Shown here: piece by piece, positions 2,486 through 12,356 of the stretch | Position numbering within the stretch: position 1 is the first letter of the stretch | Layout: each line of letters opens with the position of its first letter | Assembly: GCF_900101825.1 (NCBI RefSeq) | Contig: NZ_FNAG01000001.1 | Location: 992,001-1,056,000, forward strand | Source: Aquimonas voraii | GTDB lineage: Bacteria > Pseudomonadota > Gammaproteobacteria > Xanthomonadales > Xanthomonadaceae | Reading direction: 5' to 3' | DNA: 64,000 bases | Made by a program: the position numbers and the translations under genes | Notes under the pieces: generated by a model | The model's input: the letters and a program-made list of their open reading frames with translations, nothing else | Told to the model about the DNA's origin: nothing | Databases searched by the model: none

Positions 2486-2554
2486 GGCGAAATCAGCGAA
2501 ATTAGCGCAGGGCTGGCCACTTGCGGCCTTCCGGGGCCGGCGAAACCAGCGAAA
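2486..2554. repeat. Two iteron-like 16-bp repeats downstream of the DUF3987 gene
   Basis: The 16-mer GGCGAAAYCAGCGAAA occurs at 2486-2501 and 2539-2554 with one difference, and a partial AGCGAAATTAGCG overlaps the first. They lie between the end of the recombinase-ParB-DUF3987 operon and the promoter of the regulator-helicase unit. Iteron-like direct repeats near ParB-like genes could be binding sites for those proteins; this is inference only. Confidence 0.35.
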
Positions 2555-2566
2555 AAATCCCCGGCC

Positions 2567-3958
2567 CTACGCCGCAGCTAGCCGGTACACCCTCGAAGGC
2601 GCGCCGGGCGCCCCGTCGGCACGCTCGCTCCACTGCACTGTGATCCTTGGTGGCGTGGCCGCCAACAGGTGCTCCAAACACGCGTCGATCCGCGACTTTG
2701 ACACCTTGCCACGAAAGCACTCGGTGTTGATTTGGCTGCGCGTGGCCTGGCCACGCTCGCGAAGGTAGACCAACACGCGGTTCGACAGATCCAGCAGTTG
2801 CGCCAGCTTCGCTTCTTCGGCGGCGCTGACGAAGACGAAACGCACGGATGCCGTGGCGTGCCGAATCCACGCCATCGCGGCATCGATGTGTATCGCGTCG
2901 ATTCGCGTTTTCAGATCGGTGAGCGCCATGAGCATCGCGAGCCGGAGCAACATCGGCGCGCGGCGCTCCAACAGCGCGCCGACCACGCCATCGCCCAAGT
3001 CGTCGTTCAGTTCACCGCGGTAGAACTTGGCGTAGCGCCATTGGGCCTGCGGCGACAGCTCCACCCGCAGATGGTCGCGTTCGTTGTGCCGGTCGGCGCG
3101 AGTGAAGGCCAGTACCTCACGCGTCCTGCGCGCCAACTGCTCGACATCTGCCTGCGGCGTTTCCTTCGGGAACGGCAGCATCCGCGTGCGCTCGGCCCAG
3201 ATCATCAGGAAGCGATTGGCGAAACCATTGGTGAGATCGCGCGAGCTCATCAGGCCGGTGAGTTCCCCAGGCGAGATCGCGCCACTCACGCAGACGTGCG
3301 GATCGCTGGCATAGAGCCGGTTCGACTTGGTGGCAGGCTTGAGATCGACGCCATCCCAACAGTCGCGTAGCGCTGCCGACAGCGTGTTGCCGTCGCGCCG
3401 CCCCTGATGCAGCACGTTGGCAAACTCGGACTCGACGACCCAAAGCCGCTTGTCCTCGATGGCAAGTACGTCCTGCCGGCCCTGCCGGTAGCCGTCATGC
3501 ATCAAAGCCACGAGTCCTTCGCGGCTGGACAGGCCGCCACGATGGACCTGCGGAGCCAAGGGTCCGTCCATCGCGCGCAGCGCCCGATCAATGCGCAGCA
3601 CCAGCGACACGGCGTCGCCTTTGCGACCACGGCCCGAGCGCCCAACGTGCAGGCAGAACAGGCGTGCATGGTGTCGGGTGTTGCCGATGGGGAGGTACAC
3701 GCCGCGCCCGATGGCGCAGGACAGGTAGGTCATGAAGTTCGCCGCGATGGCGTACGCGTTGGTCTCGGTGCCCTCACTGCCCGCGCGGGCGACCTCGCCG
3801 ATCAAGCCGTAGAGACAGGCGGAGTCGGCCTGCGGTGCATTGCGGTGCGCGAGCGCCGCCATCTCGTCGTCAGCCACACCGCCAAAGTGCTGCGCGTCGG
3901 ACGCTGCGCTCGCTGCGTCCAGGTCGGGCAGACCCGCAGTGGTGACGCCGCCATTCAC
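2567..3958 (-). CDS. DUF3987 (YfjI-like) protein
   Basis: A 463-residue protein of the DUF3987 family, whose members occur in prophages and integrative elements and have a P-loop-like core. The segment FCLHVGRSGRGRKGD (about residues 101-115) is the degenerate Walker A-like loop typical of the family; the conserved SSREGL and a helical C-terminal half follow. The last 90 residues (from AKLAQLLDLSNRVLVYL) look like a winged-helix module. Its ATG (3956-3958) overlaps the stop of the preceding ParB-like gene as ATGA, so translation is probably coupled. It is the last gene of the operon. A helicase- or primase-related role in element maintenance is suggested for the family but unproven; no intact Walker A lysine-serine/threonine pair is seen. 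Confidence 0.8.
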   Translation of the reverse strand: MNGGVTTAGLPDLDAASAASDAQHFGGVADDEMAALAHRNAPQADSACLYGLIGEVARAGSEGTETNAYAIAANFMTYLSCAIGRGVYLPIGNTRHHARLFCLHVGRSGRGRKGDAVSLVLRIDRALRAMDGPLAPQVHRGGLSSREGLVALMHDGYRQGRQDVLAIEDKRLWVVESEFANVLHQGRRDGNTLSAALRDCWDGVDLKPATKSNRLYASDPHVCVSGAISPGELTGLMSSRDLTNGFANRFLMIWAERTRMLPFPKETPQADVEQLARRTREVLAFTRADRHNERDHLRVELSPQAQWRYAKFYRGELNDDLGDGVVGALLERRAPMLLRLAMLMALTDLKTRIDAIHIDAAMAWIRHATASVRFVFVSAAEEAKLAQLLDLSNRVLVYLRERGQATRSQINTECFRGKVSKSRIDACLEHLLAATPPRITVQWSERADGAPGAPSRVYRLAAA

Positions 3959-4839
3959 TTGTCCAGCGACGTGGCTTGGACGATGCGCCCGAATTCGGTG
4001 AGCATGTCCGAGTGCTTCTGGGTGAGAAAACGAAACACCGCCTCATTGCCCAGCAGCTTGCCGAGATATCCCCGGGCCAGCACCAGGTTGAGCATGTCCT
4101 GGCTGTAGGACTGCTCGATCAGTTTGAACTGCTCGTGCAGGTTCCCCATCTCGCGCTCCATCTTCATCATCTGGCCCGCGGTGACGCCCTCCATCTTCTT
4201 GGGTTTGGTTTCGCCGACCAGCAGGTTCGCAGGCGTGGCGACCAGCAGCGCTCGGGCGAAGGCCACGGTCAGGTTGTTGGAGGACAGCATCAGCTCCACG
4301 CACTCGACCTGCCGTGTCGGCTTCATCTTGCGCAGCACTGCACTGAGGTGGAACGAGAACTGCTGATCCTTCAGCAGCTCGGCGGTTTCGGGCGCGATGC
4401 CTTCGAGCAGGTTCAGTTTCCGGAAGATGCTGGTGACGTCGACGTCCAGCGCCTCGGCGAGTTTGGCGGGGGTGACCACGCCTTGCTTGACGGCGCGCTG
4501 GATCATCACGTGCTCCTGGATCGTCGAGAGCCGGTTGATCCGGTTGTTGTAGGTGTAGCTCTCGTCGTCGGTGGCGATCAGGCATGGCGCGTCGGTGTAG
4601 CCCAGTTCTGTCAGCGCCGCCATCCGTGTATGGCCATCGAGCAGCAGGTGTTTGCCGGTCTTCTTGTCCTTGGGACTGACCGACAGCGGCTCGATCAGGC
4701 CGACTGCCTTGATCGAGGCTGCGATCTGCTTGAACTTGCGGGTCTCGGTCAGGCCCACCGGCTGCTTGTGCGAGAGCAGGATCGCGTCAAGCGGTAGTGT
4801 TTGCGGTTGGAACAGGAAACCCAGCGGCACGGTGCTCAT
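3955..4839 (-). CDS. ParB-like protein (second of two)
   Basis: ParB N-terminal domain protein of 294 residues starting MSTVPLGFLFQPQTLPLDAI. The ParB/sulfiredoxin-type fold is indicated by LPLDAILLSHK, AASIKAVGLIEPLSVS and the box DGHTRMAALTELG (about residues 70-82). NRLSTIQEHVMIQRAVKQG and the KLAEALDVDVTSIFRKLNLL segment look like the linker and helix-turn-helix. The C-terminal 90 residues are helical, without a clear family match. I chose ATG 4839 because it overlaps the stop of the upstream ParB-like gene (ATGA at 4836-4839); the reading frame stays open further upstream but that part is in another gene. It differs strongly from its upstream neighbour, so the pair is not a recent duplication. 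Confidence 0.85.
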   Translation of the reverse strand: MSTVPLGFLFQPQTLPLDAILLSHKQPVGLTETRKFKQIAASIKAVGLIEPLSVSPKDKKTGKHLLLDGHTRMAALTELGYTDAPCLIATDDESYTYNNRINRLSTIQEHVMIQRAVKQGVVTPAKLAEALDVDVTSIFRKLNLLEGIAPETAELLKDQQFSFHLSAVLRKMKPTRQVECVELMLSSNNLTVAFARALLVATPANLLVGETKPKKMEGVTAGQMMKMEREMGNLHEQFKLIEQSYSQDMLNLVLARGYLGKLLGNEAVFRFLTQKHSDMLTEFGRIVQATSLDK

Positions 4840-5756
4840 GCGCTGCCCCCGCGCGGCCAGACCCGATCCGCCAGGTACTGCGGCAAGGTGTCCAGCCCCT
4901 CGGCACGCAGCAGGTTGGTGAAGTTCTCGTCGGCGAGCAGCTCGTGTAGCGCACCAACGACGAACAGCAGGCAACGCTGCGCGAACTCGGCCTTCTTGAC
5001 CATCTGCTTCTGTCGCTCAACCTCGCGCTGGTAGCTACGCACGAGGCTCGACGGCGTGACATCCGTTGATGGCGCGTTCTTGCGCGATGACGCGCCGCGC
5101 GCGAGCGACCGGCCCAGCGTGCGACGGCGCTCGATCACGCGCCGCGCCTGGATCAACTGGCTGCCCCGCAGCTTGCCGGATTCGTAGGCATCTTGCAGAG
5201 CCGACTGGATCGCCTTGTCGTCGTTGCCCGCGCCTGCGATGGTGATCGCCGAATTCAGTGGGATGCGTCCCGATTCGACCGCCATCAGCAGGCGCTCCTC
5301 ACCGTTGTTCAGCAGGTACAGCACGCCTTGGACGTATTCGGTGCTGAGGCCGGTCTTGTCGGCAATGGCCTTCTTGTCGTAGCCCTTGTCGCGCAACTGG
5401 CCGATGCCGACCAGCAGTTCCACTGGATGAAACTTGCGCCGAGCAATGTTCTCGGTGAGGCTCATGATGTACGCCTCTTCCGTGCCTACCTCCACCACGA
5501 GCGCCGGGATGCTGTCCTGCTTGAGCGTCTTGTACGCCTTCAACCAGCCTTCGCCGCAGATGAGCAAGTAGTGCTCGCCGCCATTCGTGCCCGGACGCGG
5601 CGTGACTGTGATGGGCTTCTTCAGACCGATGTCGCGGATGTTGCCGACGATCTCGTGGAACACGCGGTGATTGCGCTCGCGCGTGTTGAGCACCTCGATG
5701 CTACCGATGGGAATCATCCGCAGTTCGGCGCCGCGGTGTTGCTTGTTCTGACTCAT
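4836..5756 (-). CDS. ParB/RepB-like protein (first of two)
   Basis: A 306-residue ParB-family protein starting MSQNKQHRGAELRMIPIGSI. It has the N-terminal ParB domain: IEVLNTRERNHRVF, GNIRDIGLKKPITVTP, LLICGEGWLKAYK (in place of the GERR box) and the strongly conserved box SLTENIARRKFHPVE (about 95-109). A helix-turn-helix follows (DKKAIADKTGLSTEYVQGVL). The C-terminal half resembles the RepB C-terminal type found in plasmid partition proteins. The start ATG at 5756 overlaps the recombinase stop (ATGA), and its own stop overlaps the next start in the same way. No ParA-type ATPase is nearby, so classical partitioning is doubtful. A role as accessory or DNA-bridging factor for the recombinase is inference. 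Confidence 0.85.
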   Translation of the reverse strand: MSQNKQHRGAELRMIPIGSIEVLNTRERNHRVFHEIVGNIRDIGLKKPITVTPRPGTNGGEHYLLICGEGWLKAYKTLKQDSIPALVVEVGTEEAYIMSLTENIARRKFHPVELLVGIGQLRDKGYDKKAIADKTGLSTEYVQGVLYLLNNGEERLLMAVESGRIPLNSAITIAGAGNDDKAIQSALQDAYESGKLRGSQLIQARRVIERRRTLGRSLARGASSRKNAPSTDVTPSSLVRSYQREVERQKQMVKKAEFAQRCLLFVVGALHELLADENFTNLLRAEGLDTLPQYLADRVWPRGGSA

Positions 5757-7315
5757 GCGGCCCTCCGAATGCGGTAGCGCCGGGTCATGCCATAGAGGTA
5801 CTCGAGGCCATCGAAGCGATAGCTGTCGAACTCGATGGCGTTGCGGTCGGCGAGGTGAATGCGTTGCTGGCCGAAGTCCAGGCGCGGCAGCAGGTAGTAG
5901 TCGAGCGGGGCTTGATTGGTCTCGTCGAGTCGGACGGCGACCGTGATGTCCGGCGCAAGGCTTGTGTCGAAGCGCACTTTCCAGCGGCGGCGACCGTCGT
6001 CGAGCAATTGGCAGCGCGACAACACCAGCGATACGGTGAACTCGCGGTTGATCGTGAGGAGGTCGGTCGCGGGATCGCGTTCGACCGCACCGCCGACCTC
6101 GCCGATCCTCCGCTCGGTCTGACCGACGATTTCCGGGTGCAGACGGCGCAGGAACTGATTGACCTCCAGATACTGGTAGTCCCGGTCCGGCGTGAAGCCT
6201 ACCGTTTGGTAGGCGCGGATCAGGCTGCCGAAGCGATGCGCGTATGCGGCTGACGACGGCATGCCTTCGGCTTCGTCGATGATCAGGCCGGAGAGGTAGC
6301 CGTGCTGCTGGAACAAGCGGCGCAGCTTCTCGATCAGTTCCTCGTCGCTGAAGCGATGCGCACGTTCGCGCAGGATGCCCTGTGCGGTGAAGAACATTTC
6401 GGGCGGTACGATGCCCTCGAACGCGCCTTCCTTCTTGATCCACATCTCCGGTCGGTTCACGACCCGGTGCTTCTTGAGCTTGAACGAGCGGCGGTTATAG
6501 ACGTTGTTTCCGATGTACTTCTCGTTGGACAGCACCTCGCGCACCGTGGCCCGCGTCCAGTCACGGCCGAGGTCGGTGAGGATGCCCCTGGCGTTGAGCC
6601 GGTCGGCGATCTCGGTTTCGAGCAGGTTGCCCTCGACGAACCAGCGGTAGATCTGGTTGACGTTGGCGACTTCGAGGTCCGGACCCGGCATCAGGATCAC
6701 TCGATCGGTTTGCAGGCTTTTGTGCTCACCGCGCGACAGTTCGCCTTTCACCGATCCGGATTGGTCGATCAGCACGCGGCGCAGGCCGTAGCCCGCAGGC
6801 CCGCCTTGCCGGAAACCCAACTCGATCAGGCGGCATTGTCCGGCGAACACCTTGGCCGACAGCTCTCGGCTGTATTCGCCCGCCATCGCGCGCTTGACGC
6901 CTTTGACAATGGTAGACACGGGCGAGCCATCGTTTTCGAACTGCTCGGCGCAGTAGGCGACTTGGATTCCGGCGCGGCGGCAGATGTATTCGTAGTACGC
7001 GCTCTCGTCGGCATCCTGAAACCTGCCCCAGCGGCTCACGTCGTAGACGAGGATGATCTGGAAATCGACCTTGCCCGCCTGCACGTCGGCGATCAATTGC
7101 TGGAGTGCCTGTCTGCCGTCGATGCGCAGCCCGCTCTTGCCCTCGTCGGCGTAGGTGCGGACGATCTCGAGGTTGCGTCGGGCGGCGTACTCGCGGATTT
7201 TGTCGCCCTGGTTCTCCGTCGAGTACTGCTGGTGCTCGGTGGACATCCGCACGTACTGGGCCGCGCGGAACACCGTTTGTCTGGGCTCGTCCTCAGTAGG
7301 CGCGCTGGCATGCAT
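5753..7315 (-). CDS. Large serine recombinase
   Basis: Site-specific recombinase of the resolvase/invertase superfamily. The N-terminal catalytic domain shows the nucleophile motif YVRMSTEHQ (Ser about residue 25 from ATG 7315), ADEGKSGLRIDGR and DVSRWGRFQDADE; the recombinase DNA-binding domain follows (GYGLRRVLID to NEKYIGNNVYNRRSFKL). I prefer ATG 7315 (MHASAPTEDEP), which places the catalytic serine close to the N-terminus as usual; the frame is open to 7426. Unlike phage-type large serine integrases, I see no CxxC zinc ribbon: the last 200 residues contain isolated cysteines only and end RRYRIRRAA. Its stop overlaps the first ParB-like gene (ATGA). It probably moves the island or a part of it; att sites are not identified. 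Confidence 0.88.
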   Translation of the reverse strand: MHASAPTEDEPRQTVFRAAQYVRMSTEHQQYSTENQGDKIREYAARRNLEIVRTYADEGKSGLRIDGRQALQQLIADVQAGKVDFQIILVYDVSRWGRFQDADESAYYEYICRRAGIQVAYCAEQFENDGSPVSTIVKGVKRAMAGEYSRELSAKVFAGQCRLIELGFRQGGPAGYGLRRVLIDQSGSVKGELSRGEHKSLQTDRVILMPGPDLEVANVNQIYRWFVEGNLLETEIADRLNARGILTDLGRDWTRATVREVLSNEKYIGNNVYNRRSFKLKKHRVVNRPEMWIKKEGAFEGIVPPEMFFTAQGILRERAHRFSDEELIEKLRRLFQQHGYLSGLIIDEAEGMPSSAAYAHRFGSLIRAYQTVGFTPDRDYQYLEVNQFLRRLHPEIVGQTERRIGEVGGAVERDPATDLLTINREFTVSLVLSRCQLLDDGRRRWKVRFDTSLAPDITVAVRLDETNQAPLDYYLLPRLDFGQQRIHLADRNAIEFDSYRFDGLEYLYGMTRRYRIRRAA

Positions 7316-7472
7316 GGGCTCGGTCACTTTGCTGGTGGCGAACTCTCCAGCCGCTGCCTTCCATGGATTCTGGCCCGCCTGACAGCTGCGTAGGCCCGCA
7401 AAATCCTTGTAGAGCAATGGGTTCAAGACGCCGGATACGCACGACGCTAGCGATGGCTCTGCAGGCTGTCGA

Positions 7473-7946
7473 TCACGTCATCTCTTGACGCGTCCATCTT
7501 TCGCGGTCAGCCGCCGCCACCGGTGTGATCTCGACGATCCACGAACCGTCGTTGTTGCCGGGGAGATCGGGACGCATGCTGATCCAGTAGAGATCCCGCG
7601 GCAGGACGGACACGTCCATCTTTACACGACTGGCCGCGATCCTCGGCGACGCATGACGTGGCGCGTCGCTCCCCGCGGAATTGTCGCGATCTCTCGCGGC
7701 GGACGCTTGCTGCGCCTGTCGCCAGTCTCGCCAGTAGCCGCCGTTTCTGGCCGACCACGCTCGTTGCGCGGCACGCTGATTGGCTTGATAGTCGGAATCG
7801 GTGCGCAGCTTGTCTTTCTGCCACTGGCGCTTGCGCGCCCGCTGGCACTCGGGCGAGGAACAGTAGGCTTGGTCGGGAACTTGCGGGCGGGGTTCGAAGG
7901 TCTTGCTACAACCGGCACAGTGTCGGGGCATCGTCGGGGTCTCCAT
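7473..7946 (-). CDS. Small basic Cys-rich protein, unknown function
   Basis: About 157 residues starting METPTMPRHCAGCSKTF (a start at 7931 giving MPRHCAGC is equally possible). A putative zinc site is formed by CAGC and C-S-S-P-E-C near the N-terminus, followed by a very basic, Arg/Gln/Trp-rich helix (RARKRQWQKDKLRTD, AWSARNGGYWRDWRQ). The C-terminal third (VSVLPRDLYWISMRPDLPG) is conserved-looking without a known match. Such proteins resemble short zinc-finger proteins seen beside transposase or recombinase genes. It lies between the AbiEi-like gene and the recombinase, same strand, 157 bases before the preferred recombinase start. Nucleic-acid binding is likely; no function can be assigned. 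Confidence 0.65.
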   Translation of the reverse strand: METPTMPRHCAGCSKTFEPRPQVPDQAYCSSPECQRARKRQWQKDKLRTDSDYQANQRAAQRAWSARNGGYWRDWRQAQQASAARDRDNSAGSDAPRHASPRIAASRVKMDVSVLPRDLYWISMRPDLPGNNDGSWIVEITPVAAADRERWTRQEMT

Positions 7947-8032
7947 GCATGTCCACTGGAAACCGCGACCGATCAGCGCGACCGGAGGATCACGCGCGCG
8001 AACTGGCGCTTCATGGGAGCGAAGCCACGCAA

Positions 8033-8656
8033 TTACTCGTGGGCGACCATCTCCATATAGGGGCGCATCACGTTGGCGACCCGGCAAAACCCTGCGTACC
8101 GCCACAGGTCATCCGCCGAGGCCTTTCGCGCCCTCCAGGCATCCTTCAGCGCCTCCATCGCCACATCCAGCCCGATCTTGTTGCGGTGCTTGAAGCAGTC
8201 CACGACCGTCTTGGCCGCGCCGTAGACCCGCAGATTCACGCCGTCGCGCCGATGTTCCTCGATGCCCGCGGCGTGGACGTCGCCTGTCATCTGCACCATC
8301 CGAATCGGCGGCCAGTCGATTCGGGGCGGGTGGCTGCCGCGCGGCATAGCGATCCAGACCTGGCGCGGCAGTTGCGTCGTGAGCCCGTGGAATTGCAATG
8401 CGGTGAGCATGCAGAACACGGCCTGCGGCACCTTGGCCGCCACCACCACGAGGCTTTCGTGCTCCGACGTCGGATGATTCGGCAGGCGGTAGAGGCCACG
8501 CCCGACCTTGTCCAGCAGGCCAGCGACGGTCATGCGCGTCAGGACGGCCCGGGGCACCTCGATGACATCCAGATCACTGGCGCGCAGGAGCCCCTTCCGG
8601 CTGGCCAGATCAAGGACACGTTGGGCTTGTGTGTCGGCGGGCATGGCTCGAAGCAT
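8033..8656 (-). CDS. AbiEi-family antitoxin-like protein, apparently orphan
   Basis: A 207-residue protein matching the AbiEi type: an N-terminal winged helix (residues 10-60, AQRVLDLASRKGLLRASDL to VGRGLYRLPN), then the AbiEi core (SLVVVAAKVPQAVFCMLTAL, LPRQVWIAMPRGSHPPR, RVYGAAKTVVDCFKHRNKIG). In type IV toxin-antitoxin pairs AbiEi represses its own promoter and counters the nucleotidyltransferase toxin AbiEii, normally encoded directly downstream. Here the next same-strand gene is the small Cys-rich protein, and no nucleotidyltransferase is seen in the window. The start may be ATG 8656 or the Met four codons later. It could be a solitary regulator or the remnant of a broken pair. It is the first gene of the minus-strand series that leads to the recombinase. 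Confidence 0.8.
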   Translation of the reverse strand: MLRAMPADTQAQRVLDLASRKGLLRASDLDVIEVPRAVLTRMTVAGLLDKVGRGLYRLPNHPTSEHESLVVVAAKVPQAVFCMLTALQFHGLTTQLPRQVWIAMPRGSHPPRIDWPPIRMVQMTGDVHAAGIEEHRRDGVNLRVYGAAKTVVDCFKHRNKIGLDVAMEALKDAWRARKASADDLWRYAGFCRVANVMRPYMEMVAHE

Positions 8657-8932: not shown

Positions 8933-9265
8933 ATGGCCGGCAAGTTCGTGGTGAAGACCGCCAGCAACGGCGAGACGTATTTCCGCCTGCAGGCGGGCAA
9001 CGGCGAGACCATCCTCAAGAGCGAGATGTACTCGTCGAAGGCGGCCGCGCTCAACGGCATCGAGTCGGTTCGCAAGAACGCGCCCGACGACGCGCGTTAC
9101 GAGCGCAAGACCGCGGCCGGTGGCCAGTTCATGTTCAACCTGAAAGCCGCCAACCACCAGGTCATCGGCACCAGCGAGACGTACAAATCCGAAGCATCGC
9201 GCGAGGGCGGCATCGCGTCGGTCAAAGCCAACGCGCCGGATGCCAAGGTCGACGACCAGACGTGA
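8933..9265 (+). CDS. DUF1508 (YegP-like) tandem-repeat protein
   Basis: A 110-residue protein made of two DUF1508 repeats, each with the pattern F-x-L-x-A-x-N-x-x-x-I-x-x-S-E-x-Y. The first is around residues 4-52 (YFRLQAGNGETILKSEMYSS), the second around 55-103 (FMFNLKAANHQVIGTSETYK); both end in a VRKNAP or VKANAP motif. Proteins of this size and layout are the YegP group, small soluble proteins of unknown function. A clear AGGAG ribosome site precedes ATG 8933. It starts a plus-strand set with the nuclease (40 bases on) and may be co-transcribed with it. Nothing links it to a specific pathway. Confidence 0.85.
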   Translation: MAGKFVVKTASNGETYFRLQAGNGETILKSEMYSSKAAALNGIESVRKNAPDDARYERKTAAGGQFMFNLKAANHQVIGTSETYKSEASREGGIASVKANAPDAKVDDQT

Positions 9266-9305
9266 CGATCCGCAGATCGATCAGTACGAGGGTCTGCGGG
9301 TAAGC

Positions 9306-10106
9306 ATGGCGCGTCGGAACCCATTCCTACTCGATGTCCTGGCGCGCGCACCGTGGCCGGTCGGCTTGATCGCCGGCGTGGCGGTGCTGATCGCAGCGGA
9401 GGTCCTGGCGACCGTCCTCGGCAATCTGCAGAATCCCTATCTCGCGGCCATCGGGAAGCAGCTTGCCGGCGGCGCTCTCAACCCGCTGTTCTGGCTGCTC
9501 GCCGCCTTGTGCTGGCTGGCGGCCTTGTTCTCGTTTTTCGGCCAGAAGCAACGACAGAAGCTACTGGAAGCCCAGTCTGGCCTCGATTCGCTTCGGGCCA
9601 TGAGCTGGCGCGATCTGGAGAGGCTGGTCTCCGAGGCCTATCGACGAATGGGCTACCAGGTCGACGAAACCGGCCAGGGAGGCGCTGACGGCGGGATTGA
9701 TCTGGTGCTGCGACGCAACGGCCAAATGACCCTGGTGCAGTGCAAGCACTGGCGCACGCAACGTGTGGGGGCACCCGTCGTGCGCGAGCAGTTCGGACTA
9801 CTGACGCACCATCGGGCCGCCGCCGTCATCATCGTGACCACCGGTGATTTCACGCCCGAAGCCAAGTCCTTCGCCGAGGGCAAGGCCATCGAGTTGATCG
9901 CTGGCCCGGAGTTGCTGGCGCTGGTTCAGAGCGTGCAGCGCCAATCTCCACCCAGCGTCGCCACGTCCACGACGCAACTGGCGGCGTCGGAACAATCTTG
10001 CCCGACCTGCGCGGCACCCATGGTCAGACGCACGGCACGGCAGACCAAGGCGGACTTCCTCGGGTGCTCCAGGTTTCCTGCATGCCGCGGAACGCGGCCG
10101 ATCTGA
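9306..10106 (+). CDS. Membrane-anchored Mrr-type restriction endonuclease with zinc finger
   Basis: A 266-residue protein with two predicted membrane helices (about 18-40 and 60-78), an Mrr/PD-(D/E)XK nuclease domain (about 97-205) and a C-terminal four-cysteine finger (about 231-263). Nuclease motifs are the N-terminal SWRDLERLVSEAYRRMGYQV, the acidic GGADGGIDLVL and the catalytic LVQCKHW. The finger CPTC...C..FPAC resembles the topoisomerase I C-terminal zinc ribbon. Mrr-like enzymes cut methylated or foreign DNA; membrane anchoring would place this one where DNA enters the cell. I chose ATG 9306 because it leads directly into the first membrane helix; the frame is open to 9240. Its location in the island supports a defence role, which remains inference. 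Confidence 0.85.
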   Translation: MARRNPFLLDVLARAPWPVGLIAGVAVLIAAEVLATVLGNLQNPYLAAIGKQLAGGALNPLFWLLAALCWLAALFSFFGQKQRQKLLEAQSGLDSLRAMSWRDLERLVSEAYRRMGYQVDETGQGGADGGIDLVLRRNGQMTLVQCKHWRTQRVGAPVVREQFGLLTHHRAAAVIIVTTGDFTPEAKSFAEGKAIELIAGPELLALVQSVQRQSPPSVATSTTQLAASEQSCPTCAAPMVRRTARQTKADFLGCSRFPACRGTRPI

Positions 10107-10210: not shown

Positions 10211-10239
10211 TTGACTTTGCACGCAACTCCCCGCATCAT
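10211..10239 (+). promoter_or_regulatory. Candidate promoter of the DUF3800 leader
   Basis: TTGACT (10211-10216), a 17-base spacer, then CATCAT (10234-10239) give a plausible sigma-70 promoter. Transcription would start near 10246, about 90 bases before the DUF3800 ATG. Confidence 0.4.
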
Positions 10240-10245
10240 GTCGTC

Positions 10246-10323
10246 AGATGCTTGCATCTAACCGTCGAACTGGGGAAACCTGGGCGACAAATCCTAAGGC
10301 CGCTCACGCGGCCTTAGTTGTTT
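10246..10323 (+). ncRNA. Structured leader / candidate small RNA upstream of DUF3800
   Basis: The roughly 75-base stretch ahead of the DUF3800 gene can form a short GATG-CTTG-CATC hairpin (10248-10259), a GTCG...CGAC pairing enclosing a GAAA loop (10264-10287) and a perfect 10-bp hairpin CTAAGGCCGC-TCAC-GCGGCCTTAG (10294-10317) followed by TTGTTT. The end looks like an intrinsic terminator. The sequence CTGGGGAAACCTG (10270-10282) recurs almost exactly at 10324-10335 over the ribosome site of the DUF3800 gene. Published comparative work has described several RNA motifs, named DUF3800 motifs, upstream of such genes, so a member of that group is plausible. Which motif, if any, cannot be decided by eye. 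Confidence 0.45.
10294..10323 (+). terminator. Terminator-like hairpin directly before DUF3800
   Basis: A perfect 10-bp stem (10294-10303 with 10308-10317), a 4-base loop, then TTGTTT. It could end the nuclease transcript, end a small RNA, or act as an attenuator, since the DUF3800 start codon is only 18 bases past the stem. Confidence 0.5.
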
Positions 10324-10335
10324 CTGGGGAACCTG

Positions 10336-11169
10336 ATGCATCTTTGCTACGTCGACGAAGCAGGTTGTCCTGGAGCGCTCCCCTCGGCGACATCCGACGT
10401 TCAGCCGGTCCTTGTGATCGCGGCCTTGTTCGTTCCCCAGTCGCAGCTGGCCTTGCTGACGCGAGATTTCTTGCAGCTCAAACGGCACTTCAACCCAGGA
10501 CTTGCACCGGCTTCGTCGCCATGGCTGGACTTGGCGAAATGTGAGATCAAAGGTGCTGACCTCAGGCGTGACCTGCGTTGTGCTGGCCGCAACCGCCGAC
10601 GCGCAGTAAACGGATTCCTCGACCGAGTCCTCGGATTGCTGGAGCGGGCGAACGCCAAGCTCGTCGCTCGCATCTACATCAAAGGCCCAGGGAGTCCATT
10701 CAATGGCCGCGCCGTCTACACATCCTCGGTGCAGGCGTTGTGTGCTTCGTTCCAGCACTTCTTGGCCGTCCAAGACTCACGAGGTTTCATGGTTGCCGAT
10801 TCGCGCACGCCCGCACTCAACTCGGTTGTGTCGCACTCGGTGTTCACGCAGAAGTTCAAGGCAACGGGCGATGCCTACGACCGCATCTTGGAGATGCCAA
10901 CCTTCGGCCATAGCGAGAACCACGTTGCGCTTCAGATTACCGATTTCCTTTGCTCTTCCGTGCTCAGCCCGATGGCAACCAGCACGTACCGCCCAGGCTA
11001 CATAAATAGCGTCCATGTCCACGCCCGTGACGAAGACATCCGCAAACTCTACGCGCCAAGGATCAAGGCACTGAGCTACCGGTACAACGACGGCCTACGT
11101 CCGAAAGGCGGTCTGACAGTCAACGATGCGATCCAACAGCGACACGGCGGCTTGATGTTTCGCCCGTAG
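10336..11169 (+). CDS. DUF3800 protein (putative RNase H-like)
   Basis: A 277-residue protein of the DUF3800 family, thought to have an RNase H-like fold. The diagnostic N-terminal motif is CYVDEAG (residues 4-10) and the C-terminal motif VALQITDFLCSSVLSPM carries the second conserved acidic residue. The start at ATG 10336 (MHLCYVDEAG) is preceded by GGGGAA; the frame is open to 10318. Family members occur in mobile and defence regions and some are preceded by conserved RNA motifs. Here the gene has a structured leader whose 12-13 base segment is duplicated over the ribosome site, which suggests regulation through RNA. The biochemical activity of the family is unknown to me. It is the last gene of the island before the tRNA-like remnants. 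Confidence 0.85.
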   Translation: MHLCYVDEAGCPGALPSATSDVQPVLVIAALFVPQSQLALLTRDFLQLKRHFNPGLAPASSPWLDLAKCEIKGADLRRDLRCAGRNRRRAVNGFLDRVLGLLERANAKLVARIYIKGPGSPFNGRAVYTSSVQALCASFQHFLAVQDSRGFMVADSRTPALNSVVSHSVFTQKFKATGDAYDRILEMPTFGHSENHVALQITDFLCSSVLSPMATSTYRPGYINSVHVHARDEDIRKLYAPRIKALSYRYNDGLRPKGGLTVNDAIQQRHGGLMFRP

Positions 11170-11187: not shown

Positions 11188-11218
11188 GGGTTCGAATGCC
11201 GAGTTGAGGATCGAACCC
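11188..11218. repeat. T-arm-like hairpin B
   Basis: GGGTTCGA (11188-11195) and TCGAACCC (11211-11218) form a perfect 8-bp dyad. Read on the minus strand the segment GGTCGTGGGTTCGATCC resembles the variable/T-arm part of a tRNA and partly matches the T-arm of the tRNA-Arg at 12280-12356. It resembles hairpin A at 8785-8807. Confidence 0.35.
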
Positions 11219-11330
11219 ACGACCATCGAAAGCCACGCATGTACGCGGTCGTGGTGGGAAGACGCAGTGTCGCCTCGGATTTCCCCTGTTCTGCAACGAC
11301 CGCCGCGGGTTTCCCCGCTGCTGGATAAGA

Positions 11331-12279: not shown

Positions 12280-12356
12280 TGGCGCCCCCGGCGCGATTCG
12301 AACGCACGACCTTCCCCTTAGGAGGGGGACGCTCTATCCAGCTGAGCTACGGGGGC
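12280..12356 (-). tRNA. tRNA-Arg (anticodon CCT)
   Basis: A 77-base gene read on the minus strand from GCCCCCGTAGCTCAG to GGCGCCA. The acceptor arms GCCCCCG and CGGGGGC pair fully, CCA is encoded, the anticodon arm is TCCCC-CTCCTAA-GGGGA, so the anticodon is CCT (decodes AGG), and the T-arm has TTCGAAT. Its 3' end faces the accessory island, the usual orientation for an integration target. Confidence 0.95.

Follow-up and report, generated by a model that had tools for sequence, protein, structure and literature searches.

A DUF3800 gene in the 64,000-nucleotide stretch of the Aquimonas voraii genome analyzed here (the window) is preceded by a leader that encodes a real, conserved structured RNA, and this RNA and the DUF3800 gene travel jointly among the plasmids, phages, and chromosomes of distantly related bacteria. 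By analogy with type III toxin–antitoxin systems and AbiF, we see an even chance that the pair constitutes a mobile two-part module in which the RNA controls a nuclease. At the window locus the module consists of the following features:

10211–10239 (+): sigma-70-type promoter of the RNA, TTGACT-17-CATCAT (−35 at 10211–10216, −10 at 10234–10239)
about 10246–10323 (+): small RNA of ~75 bases with three hairpins and a terminator
10246–10259 (+): hairpin H1, AGATG CTTG CATCT, its sequence different in most loci and its stem kept in most
10264–10288 (+): hairpin H2, GUCG AA [CUGGG GAAA CCUGG] G CGAC, the internal AA/G loop conserved, the apical stem variable
10289–10293 (+): single-stranded linker AAAUC, the final UC invariant in nine aligned copies (alignments A2 and A6)
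10294–10323 (+): H3 and U-rich tail, an intrinsic terminator, CUAAGGCCGC UCAC GCGGCCUUAG UUGUUU, with a perfect 10-bp hairpin at 10294–10317
10324–10330 (+): Shine–Dalgarno sequence CTGGGGA of the DUF3800 gene, 0–2 bases past the terminator tail
10336–11169 (+): DUF3800 protein of 277 aa with a predicted RNase HII-like fold (PF12686; candidate catalytic residues D7, E8, D155, and D203)

The preliminary description of this DNA had proposed TTGACT/CATCAT as a promoter, and this held up well: the pair is the single promoter-like site between 10100 and 11300 and outscores all of the ~3,000 control segments taken from the window. The foldable RNA of about 75 bases described behind it was likewise borne out by the perfect hairpin and the TTGTTT that follows it, and the folding of the leader lies 3.1 to 3.9 standard deviations below that of dinucleotide shuffles. 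Across the 13 loci compared, the end of the −10 element of the best upstream promoter lies 19–25 bases before H2 without exception, so that transcription would begin at H1; measured against control segments from the same locus, these promoters reach p ≤ 0.021 in 11 loci.

Homologs were sought in the order and class of the host, a genome collection, plasmids, and viral contigs. The RNA was found directly upstream of every homolog read that shares at least 43% protein identity (range 43–97%), and its carriers comprise gammaproteobacterial chromosomes, plasmids of Acinetobacter pittii, Klebsiella, and Thiothrix (two in the latter), viral contigs, and a planctomycete. Among the viral contigs, L038 and L039 score well and L040 is more diverged; the planctomycete MAG (L007) has an RNA of 19 bits that is degenerate in sequence and retains the promoter, H1, H2 with its AA/G loop, and the terminator. 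The preliminary description had staked its reading on a covarying structure in homologs, and such a structure is present: in a nine-sequence alignment 97.6% of the cells are paired and both-sided changes occur at 10 of 19 pairs, a result equaled by none of 500 shuffles and destroyed by sliding the partners by 1–3 bases. With thirteen sequences the covariation score is 0.459 as compared to 0.199 ± 0.024 in shuffles, for an alignment that was fitted to the structure. A covariance model (R1) made of nine RNA copies recognized the four that had been held out (L038, 73.9 bits; L039, 73.1; L008, 47.8; L040, 43.9), and in the host genome it yielded, besides the window locus, terminator-like noise with a best score of 26.8 bits. 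An ordinary 5′ untranslated region that happens to carry the terminator of the upstream gene might be considered, because these genomes often contain similar sites that consist of a terminator only, but the covariation and the matches to held-out copies refute such a chance origin and leave it a negligible probability.

The three hairpins are conserved in different ways. For H1, the stem score summed over 11 leaders is 53, against a shuffle mean of 40.9 (0 of 1000 shuffles as high); the hairpin is weak in single loci and missing from L040. H2 shows both-sided changes at six of nine pairs in alignment A2 and five of eight in alignment A6. Its flanking four-pair helix and AA/G loop stay constant while the apical stem is rewritten between loci, from CUGGG/CCUGG to CUAG/CUAG, CUUGGGG/CUUCAAG, or CCGGAAGUG/CACUUUCGG; variants of the internal loop are UA/G in Thiothrix and AC/G in L040. 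Every locus has one copy of H2 per RNA. The terminator hairpin H3 pairs in 100% of the cells, with both-sided changes at four of its ten pairs, and its sequence is unusually conserved. An extension of H3 through ACAA/UUGU pairing was considered and dropped, as it is not kept in L012 and L010.

The leader had also been described as mimicking its own ribosome site through a repeated element, CTGGGGAA(A)CCTG, once within the RNA and again over the Shine–Dalgarno sequence. As letters the repeat exists, the window containing CTGGGGAAACCTG once, at 10270, and CTGGGGAACCTG once, at 10324; as a conserved feature it does not. None of the relatives read has the ribosome-site copy; in the 97%-identical L006 the corresponding letters are CTGGGGTGTCAG (CTGGGATAAGGAAATC in L005, ATGGAGAATAGA in L012). 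At this site most loci retain GGGGA or GGAGA but not the remainder of the supposed second element. Within H2 the letters of the element simply form both arms of a stem that is free to vary in sequence. A self-repeat as good or better arises in 4 of 200 shuffled leaders, that is, with a chance of about 2%. We therefore rejected a binding element common to H2 and the ribosome site, and with it the proposal that one factor binds both the RNA and the mRNA start through the repeat: the ribosome-site mimic is a coincidence.

The RNA is tied to one subfamily of DUF3800 proteins. Of 396 sampled genomes of the host's order, the RNA reaches at least 80 bits in four, and precisely these four encode the protein; the next-best scores are 32–37 bits, and inspection of the four highest-scoring matches among them showed terminators without H2. 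Nowhere was the RNA found without the gene, and two plasmids with a truncated DUF3800 gene (L015 and L016) have no RNA. RNA and protein distances are correlated (Mantel r 0.90; 0 of 5000 permutations as high), as expected for a unit that is inherited and transferred together. In viral contigs, a strict RNA pattern matched the contig of L038 only, and there was no real RNA among the matches listed for a loose pattern. The Phage GenBank collection contained no relatives of the protein, and the Klebsiella cassette had no relative in E. coli genomes. Two 41%-identical homologs, L041 and L042, have leader hairpins and a terminator but are not recognized by the model, and they were not counted as members. 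A TTGACA promoter accompanies the several hairpins and the terminator of their different leader (3800–4000), which is possibly yet another class of DUF3800 RNA. In an Opitutales MAG (L009), a 26%-identical DUF3800 gene likewise has a hairpin-rich leader ending in a T-run (4920–5000).

The surroundings of the module point to mobility. Two neighboring features are relevant here:

9240–10106 (+): Mrr-type restriction endonuclease with a zinc ribbon, a neighbor outside the module (Pfam, PADLOC)
12280–12356 (−): tRNA-Arg(CCT), the edge of a variable region, with the module to its left

Synteny with a genome of the same genus ends exactly at 12280, which places the module within the variable region. 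The genes at 4836–8656 (−), encoding a large serine recombinase, a RepB/ParB-like protein, and an AbiEi-type protein, are the remains of an integrated element by the tRNA-Arg boundary. Just past the DUF3800 stop codon (11190–11230), GCGGGTTCGAATGCCG and GGATCGAACCCACGACC resemble T-arm pieces of tRNA genes and are possible attachment-site remnants. The stretch directly upstream of the module (8933–10106) contains a two-domain DUF1508 gene followed by the Mrr-type nuclease, whose zinc ribbon is of the topoisomerase type; in L006 the end of an Mrr-type gene also lies just upstream. Restriction genes occur beside the module in three independent loci: Mrr adjoins it in the window, a DpnII-MboI restriction enzyme is found in L046, and in L038 a phage terminase flanks the module on one side and an EcoRI-type methylase plus a GmrSD/HNH gene on the other. 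In one relative, a 4.5-kb mobilizable ColRNAI plasmid carries the module as its main cargo. Two Acinetobacter plasmids encode the same 132-aa protein (WP_024437500.1; L011, 3449–3847; L016, 2918–3316) after DUF3800; it has no Pfam match and is present also where DUF3800 is truncated (L016). PADLOC contains no model covering the module. The neighbors thus amount to the company of defense and plasmid-keeping genes, which is an association and not a function. In such mobile settings, and with so strong a terminator and promoter, the RNA might be a processing substrate or serve the mobile element itself in replication, transfer, or transcription insulation, with no binding by DUF3800. We regard this as very improbable, since H2 covaries although neither promoter nor terminator needs it, and since the RNA is tied exclusively to one protein subfamily across plasmids, phages, and chromosomes.

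The protein matches PF12686 (E 1.9e-11; 45.3 bits, gathering cut-off 21), and DUF3800 is the only family that Pfam recognizes in it. Fifteen residues, namely Y5, E8, G10, E70, K72, K116, D155, R157, H167, K173, N195, H196, Q200, D203, and H227, are identical in all 12 aligned sequences, and D7 is conserved in 11. The N-terminal DE(A/S)G of the protein resembles the DEAG motif of RNase HII. A structure prediction built from seven sequences is of moderate quality, with a pLDDT of 68 and a pTM of 0.74, with residues 1–19 and 149–192 below a pLDDT of 50. The top eight structural matches of this model are all RNases H2, HII, or HIII, with Z scores of 5.0–7.5 (below 8), the next, unrelated match having a Z score of 3.0; they superimpose with an rmsd of 3.3–4.2 over 127–157 residues. 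Foldseek alone gave a non-significant E of 0.33. The likeness to RNase HII and the RNase H2 catalytic subunit thus lies in the predicted fold and the N-terminal DE motif, whereas identity is 6–13% and a sequence search of the PDB gave no significant match. On this model, the DUF3800 protein resembles RNase HII-type nucleases (DE..D..D), and nuclease activity appears likely. For another DUF3800 protein, an AlphaFold2 analysis indicated an RNase H fold with catalytic rearrangement (PMC10910872). In L013, a Thiothrix subterranea plasmid, an intact DUF3800 frame (2501–3343) with an intact RNA alongside has D7 replaced by A (YIAES); the near-identical L014 keeps the Asp, which makes L013 a natural active-site variant.

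The arrangement of one locus bears on whether the RNA acts on its own. In L008, a Phyllobacteriaceae MAG, the RNA (4879–4965, −) has its own promoter and terminator and is inverted relative to the DUF3800 gene, which starts divergently at 5001 (+) and is interrupted by stops. This is the sole inverted RNA, and a search of 249 genomes for more Rhizobiales loci in which the arrangement might recur found none. The RNA is retained and the nuclease decayed, as might be expected for a kept antitoxin. L008 shows, for one locus in one MAG, that the RNA keeps its pairing as a separate unit; being inverted with its own promoter, it can stand apart from the mRNA. The main rival reading is a purely cis-acting leader that controls its own gene, either by attenuation at H3 or through DUF3800 binding to its mRNA leader. 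In all cis loci the terminator immediately precedes the ribosome site; this, the single promoter at the window locus, and the constant presence of the DUF3800 gene would all agree with such control, but L008 does not, nor does the ribosome-site copy proposed as an operator, given that it is unconserved. Furthermore, no conserved alternative (antiterminator) pairing was noticed by eye, and all three hairpins are conserved, beyond the needs of an attenuator. A purely cis-acting leader hence seems rather unlikely to us, and a separate small RNA appears, from the sequence comparisons, the better fit, given that the terminator is fixed and the inverted copy has a promoter to itself. Autoregulation of translation is possible.

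An alternative role for a separate RNA would be that of an effector, a cofactor that the nuclease needs for targeting or activation, as guide or scaffold, and that does not inhibit it. The predicted nuclease-like fold tied to one dedicated RNA would suit this role, as would the occurrence of DUF3800 proteins in certain type V and VI CRISPR loci, where they are accessory nucleases (PMC10910872, PMC12669027). However, no variable unpaired, guide-like segment is present in the RNA alignments, the two closest copies are nearly identical along the whole RNA, the parts that do vary are stems covarying with themselves, and the 3′ end of the RNA is a terminator. The lack of guide-like variation makes a guide or scaffold function less likely, and we consider an effector quite improbable. 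The RNA-guided system contemplated in the preliminary description thus found no support, as there is neither a guide segment nor an array, and Rfam detected no CRISPR repeat family at gathering score at the window locus.

For the RNA–nuclease module we propose the following course. Transcription from the promoter at 10211–10239 would yield the ~75-base RNA, which would mostly be ended at the H3 terminator, and occasional read-through past H3 would provide the DUF3800 mRNA with its ribosome site directly after the terminator. We infer that the RNA is thereby made in excess as a small RNA. The layout shared with type III systems and AbiF/RCd22 leads us to take it as bound by DUF3800 and inhibitory. 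By this analogy the protein probably does bind the RNA, and candidate contacts would be the AA/G loop of H2, the UC linker, and the base of H3. That the RNA inhibits rather than activates DUF3800 could, on the same analogy, go either way. The RNA, always in excess, would keep the nuclease inactive or set its specificity, and its loss, for example upon phage takeover or plasmid loss, would free the nuclease. An intact frame with a D7A exchange, as in L013, would be surprising for a nuclease required at all times. A role of the module in defense or plasmid-keeping would follow from this scheme.

Tentatively, the pair may represent a new class, in which a DUF3800 protein of RNase HII fold is restrained or directed by a non-repeat, three-hairpin RNA and exchanged with it as a unit. 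If this is true, many DUF3800-associated RNA motifs would be cognate RNAs of one nuclease superfamily; those upstream of DUF3800 genes are listed in Rfam without known function. The pair is compact (about 75 bases and 277 residues) and offers strong covariation, one arrangement as separate units, and predicted catalytic residues; being so well delimited, it makes the role of DUF3800 RNAs directly testable.

Several RNAs upstream of DUF3800 genes, among them DUF3800-I and DUF3800-IX, are present in Rfam (PMC11701678). As the preliminary description had stated, such motifs precede DUF3800 genes, and the RNA studied here is of the same kind, with a covarying structure immediately upstream; the covariance search with the Rfam motifs (Rfam 15), in contrast, gave no match. 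The window leader matched no family at gathering score and no DUF3800 model up to E 10, the DUF3800 motifs had no match at gathering scores in the 13 loci, and single scans up to E 10 found none in the window, L012, L007, L041, or L009. DUF3800-I (RF02969) did not match in any of 150 genomes, controls included, and hence provided no positive control; a search with DUF3800-IX (RF02968), also lacking a positive control, returned sub-threshold noise only; and neither model matched in the host genome. The RNA thus resembles RF02969, RF02968, and their sisters in that it is structured and immediately precedes a DUF3800 gene, and it differs in matching none of them, so that it would form a further, uncatalogued class of this kind, as set apart by a model search lacking a positive control.

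In type III toxin–antitoxin systems, one promoter is followed by an RNA, a Rho-independent terminator, and a ribonuclease gene, and the systems are found on plasmids and phages (PMC5086642). ToxIN, CptIN, and TenpIN share their layout with the DUF3800 module, by sequence layout only. Their antitoxins consist of tandem repeats, which the DUF3800 RNA does not have; classic type III antitoxins form a pseudoknot, and none was come across in an unsystematic look at the DUF3800 RNA; and their toxin is of the ToxN/CptN/TenpN fold, whereas the best structural matches of the predicted DUF3800 model are RNases H2, HII, and HIII. In AbiF/RCd22 of C. difficile, an RNA of ~100 bases is transcribed from a single promoter and mostly terminated, with occasional read-through into abiF, and the prophage-borne RNA acts both in cis and in trans to neutralize AbiF (PMC12373285). 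Protein (Abi_2) and RNA (RF03085) are unrelated to those of the DUF3800 module, and each RNA contains two motif copies instead of one; toxicity and neutralization, proposed here for the DUF3800 module, are experimentally established for AbiF. The two are alike in their order of promoter, RNA, terminator, and protein gene, with no second promoter.
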